Assembly (NCBI GenBank): GCA_963971405.1
Contig: OZ020491.1
Span: 28,008,519 to 28,072,518 of the forward strand
DNA: 64,000 nt
DNA from: Psococerastis gibbosa
Taxonomy: Eukaryota; Arthropoda; Insecta; Psocodea; Psocidae
Direction of reading: 5' to 3'
Positions 1,317 to 32,118 of this stretch are shown piece after piece. The position numbers and the translations under genes were made by a program. The number at the start of each line of letters is the position of its first letter. The stretch's first letter is position 1. Under the pieces are notes generated by a model, which made no database searches, had not been told where the DNA came from, and was given only the letters and a program-made list of their open reading frames with translations.

Positions 1317-3060
1317 GGGGCCTTTCAGCCTGAATGGCGTCGACCTTTAATAGGTCTTTTGCCACCGTGGTTATCTCAGTCTTCCCATTTTGATACACCC
1401 ACCAGTCCAATAAATTTTCTGATGGTGCCTATGGGGTCGTTTCTGATGGTTAACGCTTCTTCTCCTGGGAAGCCCAGGGTCTGAAGGCGTTTTCGTGCCA
1501 GCGCCTCACATTCAAGAAGGACGTGCTCTGCTGTTTCATCCTCCATCACGCACCATCGGCACAGTCGGTTTTCTTGTATAATTCCGATCTTGTGGAGATG
1601 GGCTCGAAGTTGGCAATGTCCTGTCAGCAAACCAATGACTTTCCTCATCATCTGTCTCTTTAACGATAACAGGTTTAAGGTAGTCTTCCTGCTAGGTTTT
1701 ATTCCCAACTTCTGTAAGTTGCGATGTTCTGGCATGGTTCTCCATTCTTCCAGTTTTTGTTTCTGTACCCATGTACCAACTTCCGTGCGGATGCTTCCGT
1801 AGGCTATACCGCATGCTGGTTCTGGTCCTGTCAGGGGTGTCTCTGAGCCCTTTCGGGCTAGTTCGTCTGCTTTTTCATTCCCTGCATGGCCTGAATGACC
1901 CGGCACCCAAGCGACTGTTACGTTGTTGTGCTTGGCCAGCCTTTGCAGGTTGAGTTTGCATTCTCGTAGGATTTTTGATTTCGTACGAGATGATTCCAGT
2001 GCTTTCAATGCAGCTTGGCTATCTGTGAAAATATAAATGTTGCGGTTGGAATTCCCTGCCGCTATATTTTCAAGGGCGCACTGCGATATGGCACATACCT
2101 CAGCCTGATAGACTGTGCAGTGTCTTCCTAGGCTTATGCTTGTGGATCTGTCAGAGTTTATCTCGACTATTCCCGCACCTGTGCCATTGGCAGTCTTGGA
2201 GCCATCTGTGTAAAACACTATGTCTCCCTGTTTAACTTTGGCACCTTCCTCCGACCATTCTGTCCTGGAGGGGACTATGGTCTGGAAGGACCGTCGGAAG
2301 TTCAACTCAGGTATGATGAAGTCCGACGGCATTAGCATTAAGTTGTTATTGATAAGTGAGCTTATTTTGGAGTGACCTCTTTGGATATGTTTCCAGTGTC
2401 CTGTCTGCTCCAGTCTATAAGCGGATATTCTGGCTTGTCCTTTAATGAACACACTCAGTGCTGGAAGGTCCAGAAGGGTGTTTAGAGCATCGGTGGGTGT
2501 GCTAGACATGGCTCCAGTTATGCAAATGCATGCCAGTCTCTGCACACTGTCTAACCTGCGTTTTGCAGTGCATTGGTTGACTTTCGTCCACCATATTACA
2601 GCTGCATATGTTATGATAGGCCTAATAACTGCTGTGTAGAGCCACATAGTTATTTTTGGGTTTAGGCCCCATGTTTTGCCCACAGCTCGTCTGCATGCAA
2701 ATAGGCAGTTCTTTGACTGTGTTATTTTATTCTCCAGGTGAGTGTTCCAGGTAAGTGTTTTGTCAAGGGTGACTCCCAGATACTTGGCCTCACTCGACCA
2801 GGAGAGGGGAGTCCCAAATAGTTTGGGCGGTTGTTCCTGCGTTACCCCACGTCTGCGGGTGTAGAGGACAAGTTTTGTTTTGTCTGGATTCACCCTAAGT
2901 TTTTCTTCCAGACACCAGTTCTCTACCTTTTTTAGTGCCGCTTGTGTCAGCTGGATAATGGTAGAGGGGAGAGAGCCTTGCACAACTAGGACAATGTCAT
3001 CAGCATATCCTTGTGCATAGATTCCTGCATTATTCAGGTTGTACAGCAGTCGATTTACCA
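1288..3060 (-). mobile_element. 5'-truncated LINE insertion (I/LOA-like) with TSD and poly(A)
   Basis: The insertion is flanked by a perfect 14-bp target-site duplication, aaggcgaatgactt, at 1274-1287 and 3061-3074 (15 bp if the shared neighbouring A is counted). On the plus strand the left flank runs into 24 consecutive Ts (1286-1309), the poly(A) tail of a minus-strand element. The 5' end is cut inside the reverse transcriptase, as expected from incomplete target-primed reverse transcription. The coding part is uninterrupted, so the insertion is recent. Confidence 0.93.
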
Positions 3061-3061
3061 A
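1376..3061 (-). CDS. LINE ORF2 C-terminal part: RT thumb, RNase H, zinc knuckle
   Basis: About 561 codons stay open from the 5' junction to the stop. The first codon is a TTG made partly of flanking target DNA, so the frame is a truncated ORF2 without its own start. In order: the RT catalytic YADD box at residues 19-22; the thumb region; an RNase H domain with FYTDGS (D286), E321, FTDSQ (D347) and GHSGHAGNEKAD (D399), so all four acidic residues are present; and a C-terminal C-x2-C-x8-H-x4-C knuckle at 501-518. RNase H plus knuckle is the arrangement of I/LOA-group non-LTR retrotransposons. The endonuclease and RT fingers/palm are absent, so this copy cannot be autonomous. The exact clade is uncertain. 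Confidence 0.9.
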   Translation of the reverse strand: MVNRLLYNLNNAGIYAQGYADDIVLVVQGSLPSTIIQLTQAALKKVENWCLEEKLRVNPDKTKLVLYTRRRGVTQEQPPKLFGTPLSWSSEAKYLGVTLDKTLTWNTHLENKITQSKNCLFACRRAVGKTWGLNPKITMWLYTAVIRPIITYAAVIWWTKVNQCTAKRRLDSVQRLACICITGAMSSTPTDALNTLLDLPALSVFIKGQARISAYRLEQTGHWKHIQRGHSKISSLINNNLMLMPSDFIIPELNFRRSFQTIVPSRTEWSEEGAKVKQGDIVFYTDGSKTANGTGAGIVEINSDRSTSISLGRHCTVYQAEVCAISQCALENIAAGNSNRNIYIFTDSQAALKALESSRTKSKILRECKLNLQRLAKHNNVTVAWVPGHSGHAGNEKADELARKGSETPLTGPEPACGIAYGSIRTEVGTWVQKQKLEEWRTMPEHRNLQKLGIKPSRKTTLNLLSLKRQMMRKVIGLLTGHCQLRAHLHKIGIIQENRLCRWCVMEDETAEHVLLECEALARKRLQTLGFPGEEALTIRNDPIGTIRKFIGLVGVSKWED

Positions 3062-4579: not shown

Positions 4580-5210
4580 AGTCGAATGAGGAACCAGTAG
4601 AATCCGGGCTGATGGGCCGTGGTCAAAGTGAAAGTGAACTTCCAAACGTTTCGTCAACATCTGCGGTCGATATCTTCAGTGGAACTGCGTAGACTTCTAA
4701 GATTGTATCTCGGAGGCTCAGCAGCGACTGTGAGGGCAGGAGGTTGTGCTCTGAAATTTATACTAAGATGCGGGGTGGTGGGGGGTGGAGGCGGAGTCAT
4801 CCTCGCTCCTGATTGGCTCCCTACTACCTCAACCTGATTTCCGGATGATGACACCAGTTTCTTTGCTGTAGTCTTCTTTAAGGCTGGATACCAAATTCTA
4901 TTGACCTTTAATCCTTCTTCTTTCCTATTGAAGTTATGCGGGTGCTTGTGGATCTCTATAGCCTCTCGGTGTAACCGAGGGTGGTATGAAGAAGTTGTAG
5001 AAAGTACTGTAGCATCTTGAAATTGTATTATGTGACCGGTTTGTGTTAGAACATGCTCAGCGATTGCAGACTTCTCCGACTGTAGAAGACGGCAGTTTCG
5101 TTTATGTTCATCAAACCTGGTTTTTAAGCTTCGTTTCGTAGTACCTATATAGACTTCTCCACACGAACACGGAATCCTGTAAACACCTGCTGACGTCATC
5201 GGGTCCCATG
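4580..5210 (-). mobile_element. Penelope-like element, 3' fragment with GIY-YIG domain
   Basis: The minus-strand reading at 4654-5199 starts with the GVYRIPCSCGEVYIG motif, a Penelope-type GIY-YIG endonuclease core with its CxC feature. R22 to E31 and the following H-x-N region also fit, and the tail ends STEDIDRRC. In Penelope-like elements this nuclease follows the RT; here the RT part is absent, so the copy is a 5'-truncated fossil. Fragments of the same 3' region recur at about 28985, 42370-42680, 45550 and 56395. Just beyond the 5' junction lies a scrap of another LINE. Confidence 0.82.
4640..4684 (-). ncRNA. Hammerhead-like ribozyme fold in the Penelope 3' end
   Basis: Read on the minus strand, TTCCA is followed by CTGAAGA (CUGANGA core), a TCGAC/GTTGA stem, GAAA, a very short ACGT stem III, and TGGAA pairing back to TTCCA. 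That is the order of a minimal type I hammerhead, known from Penelope-like elements. The base of stem II is imperfect, so activity is uncertain. It overlaps the end of the coding segment. Confidence 0.5.
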
Positions 5211-8225: not shown

Positions 8226-8633
8226 GCAACTGGTGTTTTTTTTTTTTATATAATCTCAATAATACACCTTATGCAATATGAACTACTTTTTTTTTATAAC
8301 CACATCTTTCTACGAGTGAAGAGTAACTCGTACACATTTTGGTTCTAAGTCTGGACTATGGGACTGACTCCGCCAACTGACTCCAGGAGCCAAAGATAAG
8401 CACCTAATTTTCATTGGGTGCCTCCCAACAACTACCAAAAACTTTCCTTTGGAAAAAGTAAAAACTCTCAAGATTTTTCCAAGTCTGCGCCACTATGTTT
8501 AGTTAACACTCCTGCGCAGATTAATGACTGGTTTCACAGAGCTACACGCGCTTGCAGGCTGTAACACAATCCGTTAGTCCAGATCGTGTATTACTGTGTT
8601 GCTGTTGCATATTAAAACGTTAAAAATTTAAAA
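8226..8633. other. Leader region of the eIF4A-like gene; nothing else seen
   Basis: This interval separates repeat sequence from the start codon at 8634. I see no clear TATA box or initiator. The last 40 bases are AT-rich and give taaaaATGagtg, an acceptable but not strong start context. Confidence 0.35.
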
Positions 8634-9779
8634 ATGAGTGATGAACGTTCAGAACCTCGCAATTTTCTCCAAATGGGGCTGGACGAAAGACTTATAAACC
8701 AATTAAAAGTGCTATGCATTAGGAAGCCCTTTCCTATGCAACAGTCTATGATAGAATCGATCATATCCGGTAGCAATGTTATTGTAGAGGCCGACAGGTG
8801 TGTCGGAAAAAAAACAGCGCTTTGCATCGCCATTTTGCACAAAATCAAGCCCACGAAAAATCGACGATGTCGGGTACAGGCTATTATTGCAGTTCCCACA
8901 TGGGAAACAGCCCGCGAAATCTCATCGCTACTCATGGTGTTGGGAGAACCCATCAAAAATATATGCAACGAACCAAGCGACTCAGAAGTAGACAGATTTG
9001 GCACGGAAAAAATCCAAAAAGGGGGGGTTTACGTGATTGTAGCCACTCCAGAATGTATTGCAGAATTAGTGCGTGACAAGCACTTGTACGTTGGCACTGT
9101 TGACGTTTATGCCCTCGTTGAAGCGCAGATACTAATACGTGGTAATTTTCGTGATAAGGTTGACTTTATCCTATGCAAATTACCGCCATATGTTAAATTT
9201 GTTACTCTGTCCCCTATCCCTCAAGGTGAAGAAATGTTAAATATTGAAGAAGTCAATTCGAGCCCTGCTGATGTGCGTATGTTATGTACTAGAAACAGAT
9301 GGGCGCACATTGCCAGAGTTAAGAACTGTTACGTAAAAGTAGAGGACAAGTTGCAAAAATTGCGCCTGCTATGCGAAAGGTTTAGATGTGGCAGTGACCA
9401 AGCTGTAATATTTTGTAATAAGAAAGCCACCGTTGAGGTGGTAAAAGAGGTTATTGAGGAGGAAGGGTTTTCAGTCGCTGCCTTGCATTCTGGTACTAGT
9501 AAGCCTGGACGACAATGCCTTCTGGAGCAATTTACCGATGGGGACCGCAGAGTGCTCGTTACAACTGATCTTTTTCCCCGCTGTGTTTTGGTAAAACAAG
9601 TGCCCCTTGTTGTCAACTACGATCTGCCGACACGATTTAAGGATTATTTTCGTAGGTCTTATACTTGCCAAGATGACGCCCGTTTCCTCAGTTTTGTTAC
9701 TGATGAAGAGATGTCCCAAATGAAGGACATTGAAAAGTTTTTCAACTTAGACTTGAAAATAATGGTAATCGAGGATTAA
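8634..9779 (+). CDS. eIF4A-like DEAD-box protein with eroded catalytic motifs (intronless)
   Basis: 381 codons, no intron, about the length of eIF4A minus its N-terminal arm. It aligns along both RecA-like domains of eIF4A/DDX48: PFPMQQ (Q motif, 32-37), VEADRCVGKK (motif I, 51-60; eIF4A has AQSGTGKT), PTWETA (Ia, 88-93; normally PTRELA), TPEC (Ib, 138-141; normally TPGR), LVEAQ (II, 161-165; normally LDEAD), SPI (III, 193-195; normally SAT), VIFCN (IV, 258-262), VLVTTD then PRCVL (V; normally ARGID), VVNYDLPT (327-333), and FRRSYTCQD where HRIGRGGR should be. P-loop K59 and E163 survive, but both DEAD aspartates and the motif VI arginines are lost. ATP-driven helicase activity is therefore unlikely. 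Family members unwind RNA in translation or the exon junction complex. This one is probably a retrocopy turned pseudoenzyme, kept open over 1.1 kb. A dying pseudogene is the alternative. Confidence 0.9.
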   Translation: MSDERSEPRNFLQMGLDERLINQLKVLCIRKPFPMQQSMIESIISGSNVIVEADRCVGKKTALCIAILHKIKPTKNRRCRVQAIIAVPTWETAREISSLLMVLGEPIKNICNEPSDSEVDRFGTEKIQKGGVYVIVATPECIAELVRDKHLYVGTVDVYALVEAQILIRGNFRDKVDFILCKLPPYVKFVTLSPIPQGEEMLNIEEVNSSPADVRMLCTRNRWAHIARVKNCYVKVEDKLQKLRLLCERFRCGSDQAVIFCNKKATVEVVKEVIEEEGFSVAALHSGTSKPGRQCLLEQFTDGDRRVLVTTDLFPRCVLVKQVPLVVNYDLPTRFKDYFRRSYTCQDDARFLSFVTDEEMSQMKDIEKFFNLDLKIMVIED

Positions 9780-11620
9780 GTAGTCTTCATAATTAACGCC
9801 CGATTTTTTTCCGGGTAAAATTAAGCGACTCTTTGTTGGAATGTATATTTACTTGTGTTTTTTTATGTTTTTAACATGTCACGACTGGTGTTTTTTAACC
9901 TGATTAATGTCTTAAAATACAATTTATAACTTTAACTTAGCCTATGAGGATATGAAAAATATATATTGGTCACTACTGAATCACGAAAAAATCACTCCAG
10001 CATTTCCGACAGTACAACGTTGAGCGTAAGCTCAAAAAGCCCTAAGAATACAGTCGCATATACTGTGTATAAATTTTTTAATTACTTAACTTACTAAGCA
10101 CTTGGTGCCATGCGAAATTTTAACAAAAGGAATAAAAGCTCAACTCTGTAGCTCATGCTTGAGCCATTGTGCTTTTCAAGTTGTACAAGACATTATTAAT
10201 TCGCGGTACAATAAATTTTAGTCTTGGTAATGTGATTTTTCTGATAAACTAATAGGGGGTATTAAAATGAATAAAATATTAATTATAAAATATAAATAAA
10301 AAATTAATTAATCAAAATCATGGAAAAATCGTCAACAATTAAAATACCTTATGGTTATAATTTGGCGTTTTAAATAGTCCTCTGGTTATTAGGGGGGCAA
10401 TTTCTCTTCAACTTTCCCTACGTATTAGCCTAAATAAAATATAATAATTTAAAATATAACAGTTAGAGGTTGATTCAGGGGTGTCCAATATATATTACTT
10501 TGTCGGCGAACTATTTTTTAAGTAGGCTACATTCTTAATTATTAATCCTAACACATTATTGTAACTTTTACTAAAACTAAACAATTCATATTATAGTTTG
10601 ACAACGATTTGATTTTATTACGTCAGTTTTGACAATGCAGTCTTCCCCAAATTACTATTTTTTATAAGGTTTATAATATTTAGCATGTTGTCTGTACCGT
10701 ACTTATATAGGCCTATTATTATTTTTGGGCTCTTTATATTGTATATAACGGTATAATCAATCCGCCATATATAACGGTTTTAAAATTAACTGTATGTGTA
10801 AGACTGGAAATAAATATTTTGAAACAAGAAACACATAATATTTATTTAAGCGTTAGTCTTACACTGCTCGTCCATTCTGAGGTACGCGGCTTAGCACTAG
10901 TGAACTGCTATGCATTGGAAATTGGGCGTGCCTCCTTACTGCATAACAAAAAGAATTACTTTAAAGAGTCCATTTATGCATTAAGGTGGCACCCCCTTGT
11001 TCCAATGCCTAGCATAACATCACGTAGAGTGCCCCCTTAAGACCTTAACTGACGGTGTAAGAATAACTGTATATTCTGAACCCCAATTTTAAAAAATATT
11101 TAAGGAACTTGTATATAAAAGGCGATTTGTTACTTGAAACTGTAACTGGATGAGGGACTAAACACCACACACAATCTAAATGCTTCTACAAGTACATTAT
11201 GGGTTGTAATATTTTGATTAATATTCTTTGATATTGATTCTGTAAACGTTTTGCACCAAACTAGCATTTGAAGCAGTTAATGCGAAGTCTTCAGTTATAC
11301 CACTAACACAAAAATTATTTGTTGTGACAAATTGGCTTATCCATACATGCTTCTAATTTATGTAATCTCATTTTACTGTATATTGTACAGTGAGTGGTAT
11401 ACCTTAGTTTATGGTAATATACCAAATTTGCCTTAGCTACCTGCAAACATTCAAGATTTCTGGGCCAATTTTTATTTTCTAATATACGCCCAGTCTTTGA
11501 ATAGTATGCAAAACGCCCATGTAACCTTTGTTGAGGCCCTGGATGGGGCCAACACAATGACGAGGCCCCCCAATTCCCATTTTATTTATTAATACCATAA
11601 TCGAAACCTCTTCTAAATCC
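9780..11620. other. AT-rich, no gene seen
   Basis: 3' flank of the eIF4A-like gene and beyond. Short frames (for example 10819-11040) lack any recognisable motif. A small inverted repeat pairs gcattggaaattgggc (about 10912) with the complement near 10990-11010. No other structure seen. Confidence 0.4.
10131..10136 (+). promoter_or_regulatory. Candidate poly(A) signal
   Basis: AATAAA lies 352 bases downstream of the eIF4A-like stop codon. It is the first canonical hexamer I see after the gene. Use is not proven. Confidence 0.35.
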
Positions 11621-19696: not shown

Positions 19697-20655
19697 GGGC
19701 AGCCCTAAAAGAACATCAAATTTCGCGCAAGATTTTTGTCTGCTGCCACGTAAATTTAATACTCTATCCCGAAGCCCGCAAAATTAATCGAATACCAGTA
19801 TTACTATGGGCAAAGTTTCTATTTGCATTTGTTACGGCGGATAGGGTCTTGCCCAAGAACAAGCAGTAATGTATTTCCGAATTGGCAGACTTCGCGCGCC
19901 CCTATATGGGTATATATTTAGTATTAAGTACCTTTACAAAAAAGAAATTAGGCGTGGTTTATCTATAGGAATAGTCGATTTATTAAGGTTTGTCTTGCAC
20001 AACTCAATGCAAGAAGCATGGGAAGAATCTTGGTTCTTGTGCAAAACACTAAAGTTGCAGTAGGAGGTACTAACCCCAACCGGTTTCCCCCATGGGAGAA
20101 AAAGATTATTAAGATTGGGTGGATCCAGGTTCGACAGAAAATTATTCCCCATTTTTTTCGGTAGATAGTGTAATAAATTTTATAAATAAAAAAAAAAACC
20201 TCACCCTCAACTTTACTCCTGACTTCAAATAAGGCATGCAGGCATAAACAAATGAGGGAGACAGATGGGTAGGCATTTGAATAAAACAGGTAGTTTATTT
20301 TTGAATTTACCACCCTCCCCCGTAAGTTCCTACCTACTCCAAATGTCATTTTCTCTAGACCCTACCGCTGCTTTTACAGCACTAATGACCCGTGGTTTCT
20401 TTCAGGGGGGAACTTAAATAACAACTTTTCCCAAATTATCATATTTTTTATGAGTTTTTCGGGCCACGAAACCTCAGCAGCTTTTCTCGACATTACAACG
20501 GCTGTTTCAGCAGTTTTTGGTTAGCGGTTTTTTGTTGGTGGTTTTGAAGCGGAAAGGTATATTGTACTAACACTGGGATACATTCGCATTATCCACGGCA
20601 GATGGGAGAACGGCGTCTGAAGGATCAGACAAAATACCGAAATACATACCCTATT
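19697..20655. other. No gene seen
   Basis: Several short frames overlap on both strands, none with a recognisable motif. Confidence 0.4.
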
Positions 20656-20659
20656 CACC

Positions 20660-21367
20660 TCCCCGAAATTGGAACTGAAAGGGCGTCGTACGCAATGGCT
20701 GGGTCATTAGAACCGAATGCCGACGGCGAGGGTGCCGAAGCTGCTTTTGGAAGACACCTTCAACCACCCTAGGCTGCCCAGTAGGCTAAGGATCAGTCAC
20801 AATGCCGAAATACAAACCCTATTTGCCTCCCTGATCATAATTTTGGAACTGAAAGGGCGTCGTATCCAGTGGCTGGGTCTACCGAATGCAGGCGGGGAAG
20901 GCACCGAAGCTGGTTTTGGAAGACACATTCAACCACCCCATAGGCTGTCCAGTAGGCCAAGGATCAGGCGCAATGCCGAAATACATACCCTATTTGCCTC
21001 CCTGATCATAATTTTGGAACTGAAAGGGCGTCGTATCCAGTGGCTGGGTCTACCGAATGCAGGCGTAGAAGGCGCCGAAGCTGGTTTTGGAAGACACATT
21101 CAACCACCCCATAGGCTGTCCAGTAGGCCAAGGATCAGGCGCAATGCCGAAATACATGCCCCATTCGCCTCCCCGAAGATAATATTGGAAATGAAAGGGC
21201 GTCGTATCCAATGGCTGAGTCATGTGAATGCAGGCGGTGAGGGCGCCGAAGCTGGTTTGGAAGACACCTTCAACCACCATAGACTGCCCGGTAGGCCAAG
21301 GCTTAGAGGGATGGACCAAGTACTAGAAGATGTGCACGCTACCTGCACCCGAGACGGCATGGTGTAG
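20660..21367 (+). mobile_element. LINE ORF tail amplified as in-frame 171-bp tandem repeat
   Basis: The word tgaaagggcgtcgta recurs at 20676, 20850, 21021 and 21192, giving periods of 174, 171 and 171 bp, all multiples of three. The plus frame 20717-21367 (216 codons) therefore stays open, repeating LKGRRIQWLG, NAGGEGAEAG and HRLSSRPRIR. The last unit continues into PGRPRLRGMDQVLEDVHATC. This matches the usual end of a LINE reverse transcriptase (RRIQWLGHV ... GRPRLRWMDQV). Only this tail is present. Confidence 0.8.
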
Positions 21368-30823: not shown

Positions 30824-32118
30824 TGTTAAAAACTATAAATAATTATTCAAGGTTCACAATTTTTCTTTATTAAAACGAATCGTTAGCGATAATTTCAAAA
30901 CATTCAGGTTGACTTCAATTGTTTTCTTTTTTCGAACGTACACAAAACCCAGTAGCGCCACGACATCCTCCCACCAAAGAAGGTATCTTCTTTCCGCTTT
31001 AACGTAGTCGGCCAGCAGGCAAAACACGCGTCCACGGCTGGTCACTGGGGTACGGGGGTCAGGCATACCTTCTTCCTTCTGAGTAGATTCATCCTCCGGT
31101 TGTGGTATGTTTTCTGTCTTCTTCTCATCCTCATCATCATCATCATCATCATGAAAATCATCATCATCAAGGTCATCATCGTCGTCTTCAAAATCAATAT
31201 CATCATCCTCATCAAGGTCATCATCGTCGTCATCAAGATCATCGTCGTCATCATCAAGATCATTATCATAATCCTTATCAAGGTCATCATCGTCGTCATC
31301 AAGATCATTATCATCGTCATTGAGATCAATATCATCGTCATCGAGATCAATATCATCATCATTATCAATATCATCATCGTCATCGAGATCATCATCATGA
31401 TCAATATCATCATCATTATCCTCATCAAGATAAATACCATCATCATCTGTCTGCCGCCCTTGTCCAGAGCACATAATGGTCCCATGTCTTCCAGAACATC
31501 CCCTGCAAGACTCTTGGGCCACACAATCGTTGGCTTTGTGATTAAGTTCTGTGCAAAATAAAGAGGCCCGCTTTTTCATCAAAATCAATTTCTCATCGAA
31601 TTTTATTAGTTCTATTTTGGGCAATTTTAGATTGCATTTCCCGTCGCTTAATTGCACACTTAGATTAACCTTACACAATCCAGTAAGGATAACTTCCCTT
31701 GAGCAACAACTCATTATCTTCTCTTGGCAATCATTGGCACTTTCATTCTCGCTACATATATCGTCTTCCGTCACTAACTCATCAGAAACAAGCAAATTCA
31801 CAATATTCTCATCTAATTTAACTAGTTTTTATTCGAAACTCTTCCCATTTCTCATCGTCATAGGCTAAATCTGCGTCCCGAGGTTATCAGCATTCGTAAG
31901 GCCCCTCTTTTTTTCTCAAACAATTAAGATTAAGACTTGCCGTTCCGTCCATGGATGTCCTGTCACGGTCGCCACTTGTTAAAAACTATAAATAATTATT
32001 CAAGGCTCACAATTTTTCTTTATTAAAACGAAACTTTAGCGATAATTTCAAAACATTCAGGTTGACTTCAATTGTTTTCTTTTTTCGAACGTACACAAAA
32101 CCCAGTAGCGCCACGACA
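30824..32118 (-). mobile_element. Short LTR retroelement, BEL/Pao-like, non-autonomous fossil
   Basis: Two 142-bp LTRs (30824-30965 and 31977-32118) are about 98% identical, begin TG and end CA, and sit between 5-bp duplications tgtat (30819-30823 and 32119-32123). On the minus strand, tggcgaccgtgacagga follows the 5' LTR as a primer-binding-site candidate, and gggagga precedes the 3' LTR. The 1-kb interior has a gag-like cysteine/histidine region and a long aspartate-rich, GAT-repeat-coded stretch. There is no RT, protease or integrase, so it depended on a partner element. The young age is inferred from LTR similarity. BEL/Pao assignment is tentative. Confidence 0.82.
31120..31445. repeat. 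Imperfect (CAT)n trinucleotide tract
   Basis: About 320 bp of CATCAT/CGTCAT variants inside the LTR element. The histidine- and isoleucine-rich frames on the plus strand are artefacts. Confidence 0.9.

Follow-up and report, generated by a model that had tools for sequence, protein, structure and literature searches.

An intact, intronless frame of 381 codons in the genome of the insect Psococerastis gibbosa very probably belongs to a gene family that is maintained by selection and is no longer catalytic. The frame (locus L001, protein P0001) lies at 8634..9779 on the forward strand of the window, by which we mean the whole 64,000-nucleotide stretch of DNA analysed, and was characterized as an eIF4A-derived pseudohelicase through translation, Pfam, a structure-database match and a search of its own genome. 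The catalytic motifs of these dead eIF4A paralogues are nearly all lost yet the family is still under selection, which makes a non-enzymatic function probable. Our best reading is that of a lineage-specific pseudohelicase family, one that would have kept an adenine-site-like pocket while its hydrolysis motifs and usual RNA contacts disappeared.

An eIF4A-derived frame with rewritten motifs

Translation of 8634-9779 yields 381 amino acids followed by a stop codon. Pfam matches cover both RecA-like domains (PF00270, 7.8e-13; PF00271, 7.6e-17), bearing out a sequence-only reading of this DNA that had described an open 381-codon frame alignable to eIF4A in both. The closest solved structure is eIF4A-I, at 150.6 bits across residues 10-377, with eIF4A-III next at 137.1 bits. 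Judged by this full-length, two-domain similarity, with eIF4A on top, L001 is an eIF4A-derived protein. An AlphaFold2 model of the single protein had a mean pLDDT of 34, too poor for use.

Each motif change listed in that reading was found in the translation: PTRELA has become PTWETA, TPGR has become TPEC, DEAD has become VEAQ, SAT has become SPI, ARGID has become PRCVL, and HRIGRGGR is gone, with K59 and E163 retained. The P-loop is likewise altered, to ADRCVGKK, a change beyond those noted earlier. L001 thus has none of SAT, TPGR, PTRELA, ARGID or HRIGR. It is enriched in cysteine, as are two relatives (15, 14 and 12 residues in L001, L007 and L016, the three counted, versus 6 in canonical eIF4A_B).

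Sixteen open paralogues and their origin

We searched the insect's own assembly (409 Mb, 68 contigs) with the L001 protein and obtained 27 matches, of which 16 are full-length, stop-free, intronless paralogues (L001 included), with identities of 36-100% in the search table. The remaining 11 comprise one stretch of eIF4A-III (C2), four exons of two canonical eIF4A genes (C3, 32.40 and 32.42 Mb), a broken copy (C12:656 kb) and five partial matches (L018, L020 and L025-L027), some of which read by eye as other DEAD-box genes. Repeating the search with L013, a distant paralogue, gave 26 matches, containing the identical set of 16 and no further full-length member; the single TAG that it placed within a paralogue (L044, the same gene as L009) is that gene's own stop codon. 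Because only the best candidates were scored in these searches, 16 members is a lower bound. The members lie on six contigs, with seven on C19 (L001, L002-L006 and L009), five on C12 and one each on C3, C14, C15 and C20. The broken family copy (L022/L050/L052, C12:656285-657056) carries several stops and is the one copy of the 17 found that is not open. Among the matches of the L001 and L013 searches, none was a broken canonical eIF4A retrocopy. The open frame of L001 is more than chance, as the genome has another 15 full-length paralogues without stops.

FastTree and IQ-TREE both separated the 16 paralogues from eIF4A and eIF4A-III (SH 1.00, UFBoot 100) on a stem of 1.29-1.30 substitutions per site. 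With these two proteins as the sole outgroups, the trees neither fix a root within the family nor tell whether eIF4A or eIF4A-III was its parent.

Over the region that the family matches, we located five exons of canonical eIF4A in copy B and four in copy A, with intact motifs, a set that excludes the first exon of both genes and the last exon of copy A. The two canonical genes (L028 and L029, C3:32.398-32.424 Mb) form a tandem, intron-bearing pair, with motif VI seen in copy B only; their dS of about 1.8 and omega of 0.037 over 329 codons point to a core translation factor that was duplicated long ago and kept in both copies.

The family frames continue through the canonical exon junctions and have no introns there, the pattern that marks a retrogene, and from this the founder likely arose as a retrocopy. 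Any poly(A) tract and target-site duplication would probably have decayed in a family of such age. L001 itself had been proposed as the retrocopy. That origin is likely for the founder; L001, whose flanks on both sides are shared with L002 and L003, more likely came from a later DNA-level duplication within the family.

A shared signature replaces the catalytic motifs

We then counted residues in aligned columns over the 16 full-length paralogues, L001 included; coordinates are those of L001, on the forward strand. The Q-motif glutamine (Q36, 8739..8741) is retained in all 16 and the upstream phenylalanine F11 in 15, so the Phe and Gln of a functional DEAD-box helicase's Q motif are in place. 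The P-loop (8790..8816) reads ADRCVGKKT in L001 and AxRCxGKxT in the family, replacing AQSGTGKTA; C56, G58, K59 and T61 each occur in 15/16, and the P-loop is lost in L012. Measured against the GxGKT of working helicases, L001 has CVGKK and the family CxGKx, with Gly replaced by Cys in 15/16 and the Thr after the Lys kept in only 2/16. Motif Ia is PTWETA (8895..8912), its Arg having become Trp in 15/16 and Cys in L010; P88, W90 and E91 are each found in 15/16. Motif Ib has TPEC in place of TPGR (9045..9056). At motif II (9117..9128), VEAQ replaces DEAD, which occurs in 0/16 paralogues; V162 is present in 14/16, E163 in 15/16, A164 in 13/16 and Q165 in 14/16. SPI stands for SAT at motif III (9210..9218; S193 in 14/16), and PRCVL for ARGID at motif V (9576..9590), where P315 is invariant (16/16), C317 is found in 15/16 and L319 in 14/16. 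The motif VI site reads RRSYTC (9651..9668), and three columns of HRIGRGGR are empty in all 16. The common signature, with few exceptions, is thus AxRCxGKxT, PTWExA, VEAQ, S-P, FPRCxL and a shortened motif VI; exceptions include L012, which has no P-loop, and L015, which has YDAH at motif II. As the rewritten motifs are common to the 16 paralogues with so few exceptions, the loss of catalysis probably preceded the expansion of the family. A near relative of L001, L003 (C19:27485934-27487070), has altered signature residues of its own (VEGQ, TLEC and IHT).

Selection on L001 and its relatives

Because the stem carries about 1.3 amino acid substitutions per site, dN/dS against the canonical parent was set aside and paralogue comparisons were used. 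Eight pairs of family members gave pairwise omega values of 0.40 to 0.76, seven of them with 2dlnL of at least 6.1; the pair L001/L003, at 0.758, was not significantly below 1 (2dlnL 1.4). These values are high for such a fold, the canonical eIF4A pair giving 0.037. With L004 and L005 as outgroups and three tips tested singly without correction, the L001 tip branch had an omega of 0.38, rejecting 1 (2dlnL 6.46, p ~0.01), and the L002 tip an omega of 0.39 (2dlnL 16.2). The L003 tip, at 1.41, differed from the other branches (2dlnL 9.91) but not from 1 (0.79), so that L003 is possibly under relaxed or altered selection and, by the same measure, some family members may be decaying. Family-wide omega under M0 was 0.615 on 378 codons (2dlnL versus 1, 121) and 0.505 on 173 strict, gap-distant columns (111).

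In a substitution-only neutral simulation of the tip branches (4000 runs each), the probability of remaining open was 0.12 for L001, 0.04 for L003, 0.009 for L002 and 0.0005 or less for each of the remaining 13 of the 16 frames. The family is thus clearly selected, and for L001 alone the case rests mainly on its branch omega. It is very unlikely that L001 is a young retro-pseudogene in decay whose frame happens still to be open: its own 0.12 chance of staying open unselected, the tip omega of L003 and the broken copy on C12 fit that account, but every other family copy found (16 of 17) is open, the L001 tip rejects an omega of 1, and neither protein search matched a broken canonical retrocopy. 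The sequence-only reading had proposed selection for a non-enzymatic role, and this is supported by omega below 1 on the L001 branch and across the family, by the 16 open frames and by the largely conserved replacement motifs. The family therefore combines lost catalytic residues with purifying selection, as a pseudoenzyme does.

The 63 motif columns evolve more slowly than the 315 others (mean omega 0.58 versus 0.75, Mann-Whitney p 5e-4). Motif columns with a derived consensus (34) showed no significant slowing relative to the 188 derived columns outside the motifs (p 0.08), which counts against our main reading.

Site models, run on M0 branch lengths that were free only in a single overall scale factor, gave on 378 columns a 2dlnL of 40.9 for M8 over M7 and 17.1 for M2a over M1a, with M8 placing 30% of sites at omega 1.35. 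On the 173 strict columns, M2a/M1a (1.17) and M8/M8a (1.47) were both non-significant; M8/M7 still reached 22.5, but its class at omega 1.12 was superfluous against M8a. As these two tests fail on the strict columns, we dropped positive selection as an established result, and alignment error may lie behind the 378-column signal. The site models bear on a further idea, compatible with the best explanation, that the family evolves fast through conflict, in an antiviral or reproductive role, with positive selection driving its surface. The 378-column results and the clustering of duplicates on C19 and C12 fit it, the non-significant strict-column tests do not, and we consider it rather unlikely.

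Conserved flanking blocks

Many paralogues resemble one another in stretches of the 100-230 bp that precede the start. From paralogue flank alignments and a comparison with four-fold sites we propose a conserved 5' block at 8504..8633 (forward strand) as a putative core promoter and leader, the naming being our own suggestion from its sequence. Within it, on the same strand, are CTGCGCAG (8512-8519), exact in 8/16 as counted on the upstream alignment; CAGGCTGTAACA (8555-8566), seen in the paralogue flank alignment; and an element resembling the Inr, an arthropod promoter element, at 8574-8580, where L001 has TTAGTCC and the consensus TCAGTCC is exact in 3/16. A TCGTGT downstream of the Inr-like element is common among paralogues, as is a CAGG(T/C)..TAACA-like box in their upstream blocks. 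Identity in the 5' block is 62%, versus 50% at four-fold sites, and is higher in 77 of 88 pairs, a set that omits L012 and L015 as too divergent, along with the three pairs that L001-L003 form with one another; the block was picked from the alignment, which favours it. A rougher control by global alignment gave 61% identity at -100..-10 and 51% at -480..-390. A conserved 3' block (9856..9926, forward strand), found by flank alignment about 80-150 bp past the stop, is common to several paralogues.

Searching the genome with the L001 5' block returned four places, each beside one of L001-L004, and with the 3' block seven, six beside paralogues and one a 55-base match at C20:5239714; both searches detect near copies only, missing most paralogues' own diverged blocks and likewise any diverged copies elsewhere. 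These results weigh on the notion that the family is cargo of a mobile element and not a host gene family. Copies on six contigs with shared flanks would suit such cargo, but the 5' block occurs only by family members and the 3' block mostly so, as far as near copies go, and no relative was confirmed in one pattern-based scan of viral contigs, in which 32 stretches fitted the pattern. We regard mobile-element cargo as highly improbable.

Other features of the window and genome

The window also holds a non-LTR retrotransposon fragment at 1376-3061 on the reverse strand, with reverse transcriptase and RNase H domains (class named by eye), and a 181-aa frame at 4654-5199, also on the reverse strand, that by eye resembles a GIY-YIG endonuclease of a Penelope-like element and had no Pfam match at 0.001. 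A minisatellite of four copies of a 171-bp unit (20620-21301) overlaps a 216-aa open frame (20717-21367), and a TCATCA-type repeat (31125-31447) contains an Asp-rich frame on the reverse strand.

Elsewhere, a large COX1 copy sits on a nuclear contig (L061/L062, C14:11085363-11086704), one of many COX1 fragments off the mitochondrial contig. The mitochondrial order on the COX1 strand is M-C-I-Q-ND2-W-Y-COX1-L2-COX2-K-D, with C, Q and Y on the opposite strand; ND2 and COX2 were named by eye, and one unlikely tRNA-Ser call within COX2 was omitted. It suggests a psocomorph barklouse, since it fits the arrangement reported for two members of that group, in which, according to the available part of that report, trnM adjoins the control region, trnM and trnC are translocated, and the boundaries trnQ-nad2 and trnY-cox1-trnL2 are shared (PMC3632521). 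The same text explains the psocomorph order by duplication and loss of the trnI-trnY block (PMC3632521).

A model for the family

The history we envisage would have begun with the retrocopying of one eIF4A messenger, to which the missing introns point. Catalytic motifs Ia, II, III, V and VI would then have been lost in the founder, which would have acquired the new signature that its descendants share with few exceptions. Duplication of the DNA together with its flanks, evident in near relatives and weaker in distant ones, would have produced the open genes, at least 16 in number, that now lie on six contigs.

In DEAD-box proteins, hydrolysis and its coupling depend on the P-loop Thr, the motif II Asp, the motif III Thr and the motif VI arginines, and the usual RNA contacts are the Arg of Ia and Ib and the GG. 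Loss of these residues would remove hydrolysis, coupling and RNA contacts, with the adenine-site Phe and Gln and the P-loop Lys remaining. Given the retained two-RecA fold, Q motif and P-loop lysine, the pocket may hold an adenine nucleotide; alternatively, it may have been refitted around the new cysteines C56 (P-loop) and C317 (motif V). The protein would neither hydrolyse ATP nor clamp RNA as DEAD-box proteins do, and could act as a fixed-shape scaffold for a protein or RNA partner, with expression in the germline as a first guess from general knowledge of retrogene families. We offer this fixed-shape pocket tentatively, as possible but short of probable. Among 23 columns with a single exception, seven exceptions fall in L012, five of them at F11, C56, G58, K59 and C317, which we take to be pocket positions; this one lineage faintly suggests that the pocket is a unit that L012 alone has abandoned. 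A bolder version, in which C56, C317, the motif Ia Trp and VEAQ rebuild the ATP cleft and lock the RecA domains through a disulfide, a metal or a trapped nucleotide, making closed clamps for co-regulated, tissue-specific control of messengers, strikes us as unlikely.

The sequence-only reading had instead suggested a decoy. Such a dominant-negative form would displace eIF4A on eIF4G and slow translation. An informative case is the mutant PRRVAA, presumably an altered PTRELA. In the portion of PMC7470955 available, helicase-dead eIF4A mutants fail in the assay and PRRVAA can be dominant negative, which favours a decoy, and eIF4G binding is reported to require D265, E268, D296 and T298. Also in its favour, 6/16 paralogues, L001 among them, have an acidic residue at position 268. 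Against it, the D265 column is empty in 16/16 (both columns adjoin a 3-residue gap of uncertain placement, on which their counts depend), D296 is kept in 3/16 and T298 in 2/16, and position R45 is Arg in 1/16 and Lys in 6/16; L001 itself has a gap, E, G and S at the four positions. As most residues that the accessible text names for eIF4G binding are changed, the simple decoy idea is weakened, and we find it doubtful.

Comparison with known systems

Pseudoenzymes that arise from duplicated genes are a known kind; the size of this family and its mostly consistent rewritten motifs are unusual. We found no paper joining the term Psocodea to eIF4A, and among the matches listed for eIF4A retrogenes or pseudoenzymes, pseudohelicases, testis paralogues and barklouse genomes no title concerned such a family. 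If the pseudohelicase reading holds, the at least 16 natural variants would form a mutational series of the uses to which a DEAD-box body can be put without ATP hydrolysis, and the family would also show how a core translation factor yields a lineage-specific gene family.

Like eIF4A (eIF4A-I/II) and eIF4A-III, L001 has two RecA-like domains, aligned over residues 10-377, the Phe and Gln of the Q motif, the P-loop lysine, the motif II glutamate and the motif IV core FCN. Unlike them, its family is intronless and multicopy, with motifs I (partly), Ia, GG, Ib, II, III, V and VI altered, and it evolves at an omega of 0.5-0.6, far from the 0.037 of the canonical eIF4A pair. The PRRVAA and helicase-dead eIF4A mutants resemble L001 in losing catalytic or RNA-contact motifs within an eIF4A body; as the part of the study at hand describes them, they change single motifs in an otherwise normal eIF4A and were tested in a D296K partner background (PMC7470955), whereas nearly all motifs differ in the L001 family and the eIF4G-site residues are not retained as a set.

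To our knowledge, pseudokinases are well known and pseudohelicases few. Utp25/Def, called the first fully validated pseudohelicase in the available text of PMC9539457, shares a DEAD-box-like fold with the L001 family and, by the same text, has a needed role although its helicase motifs are dispensable. It differs, as described there, in being a growth-essential ribosome-assembly factor with accessory N-terminal sequence (PMC9539457). The L001 family is by comparison multigene, derived from eIF4A, found in one insect and marked by a motif signature of its own.
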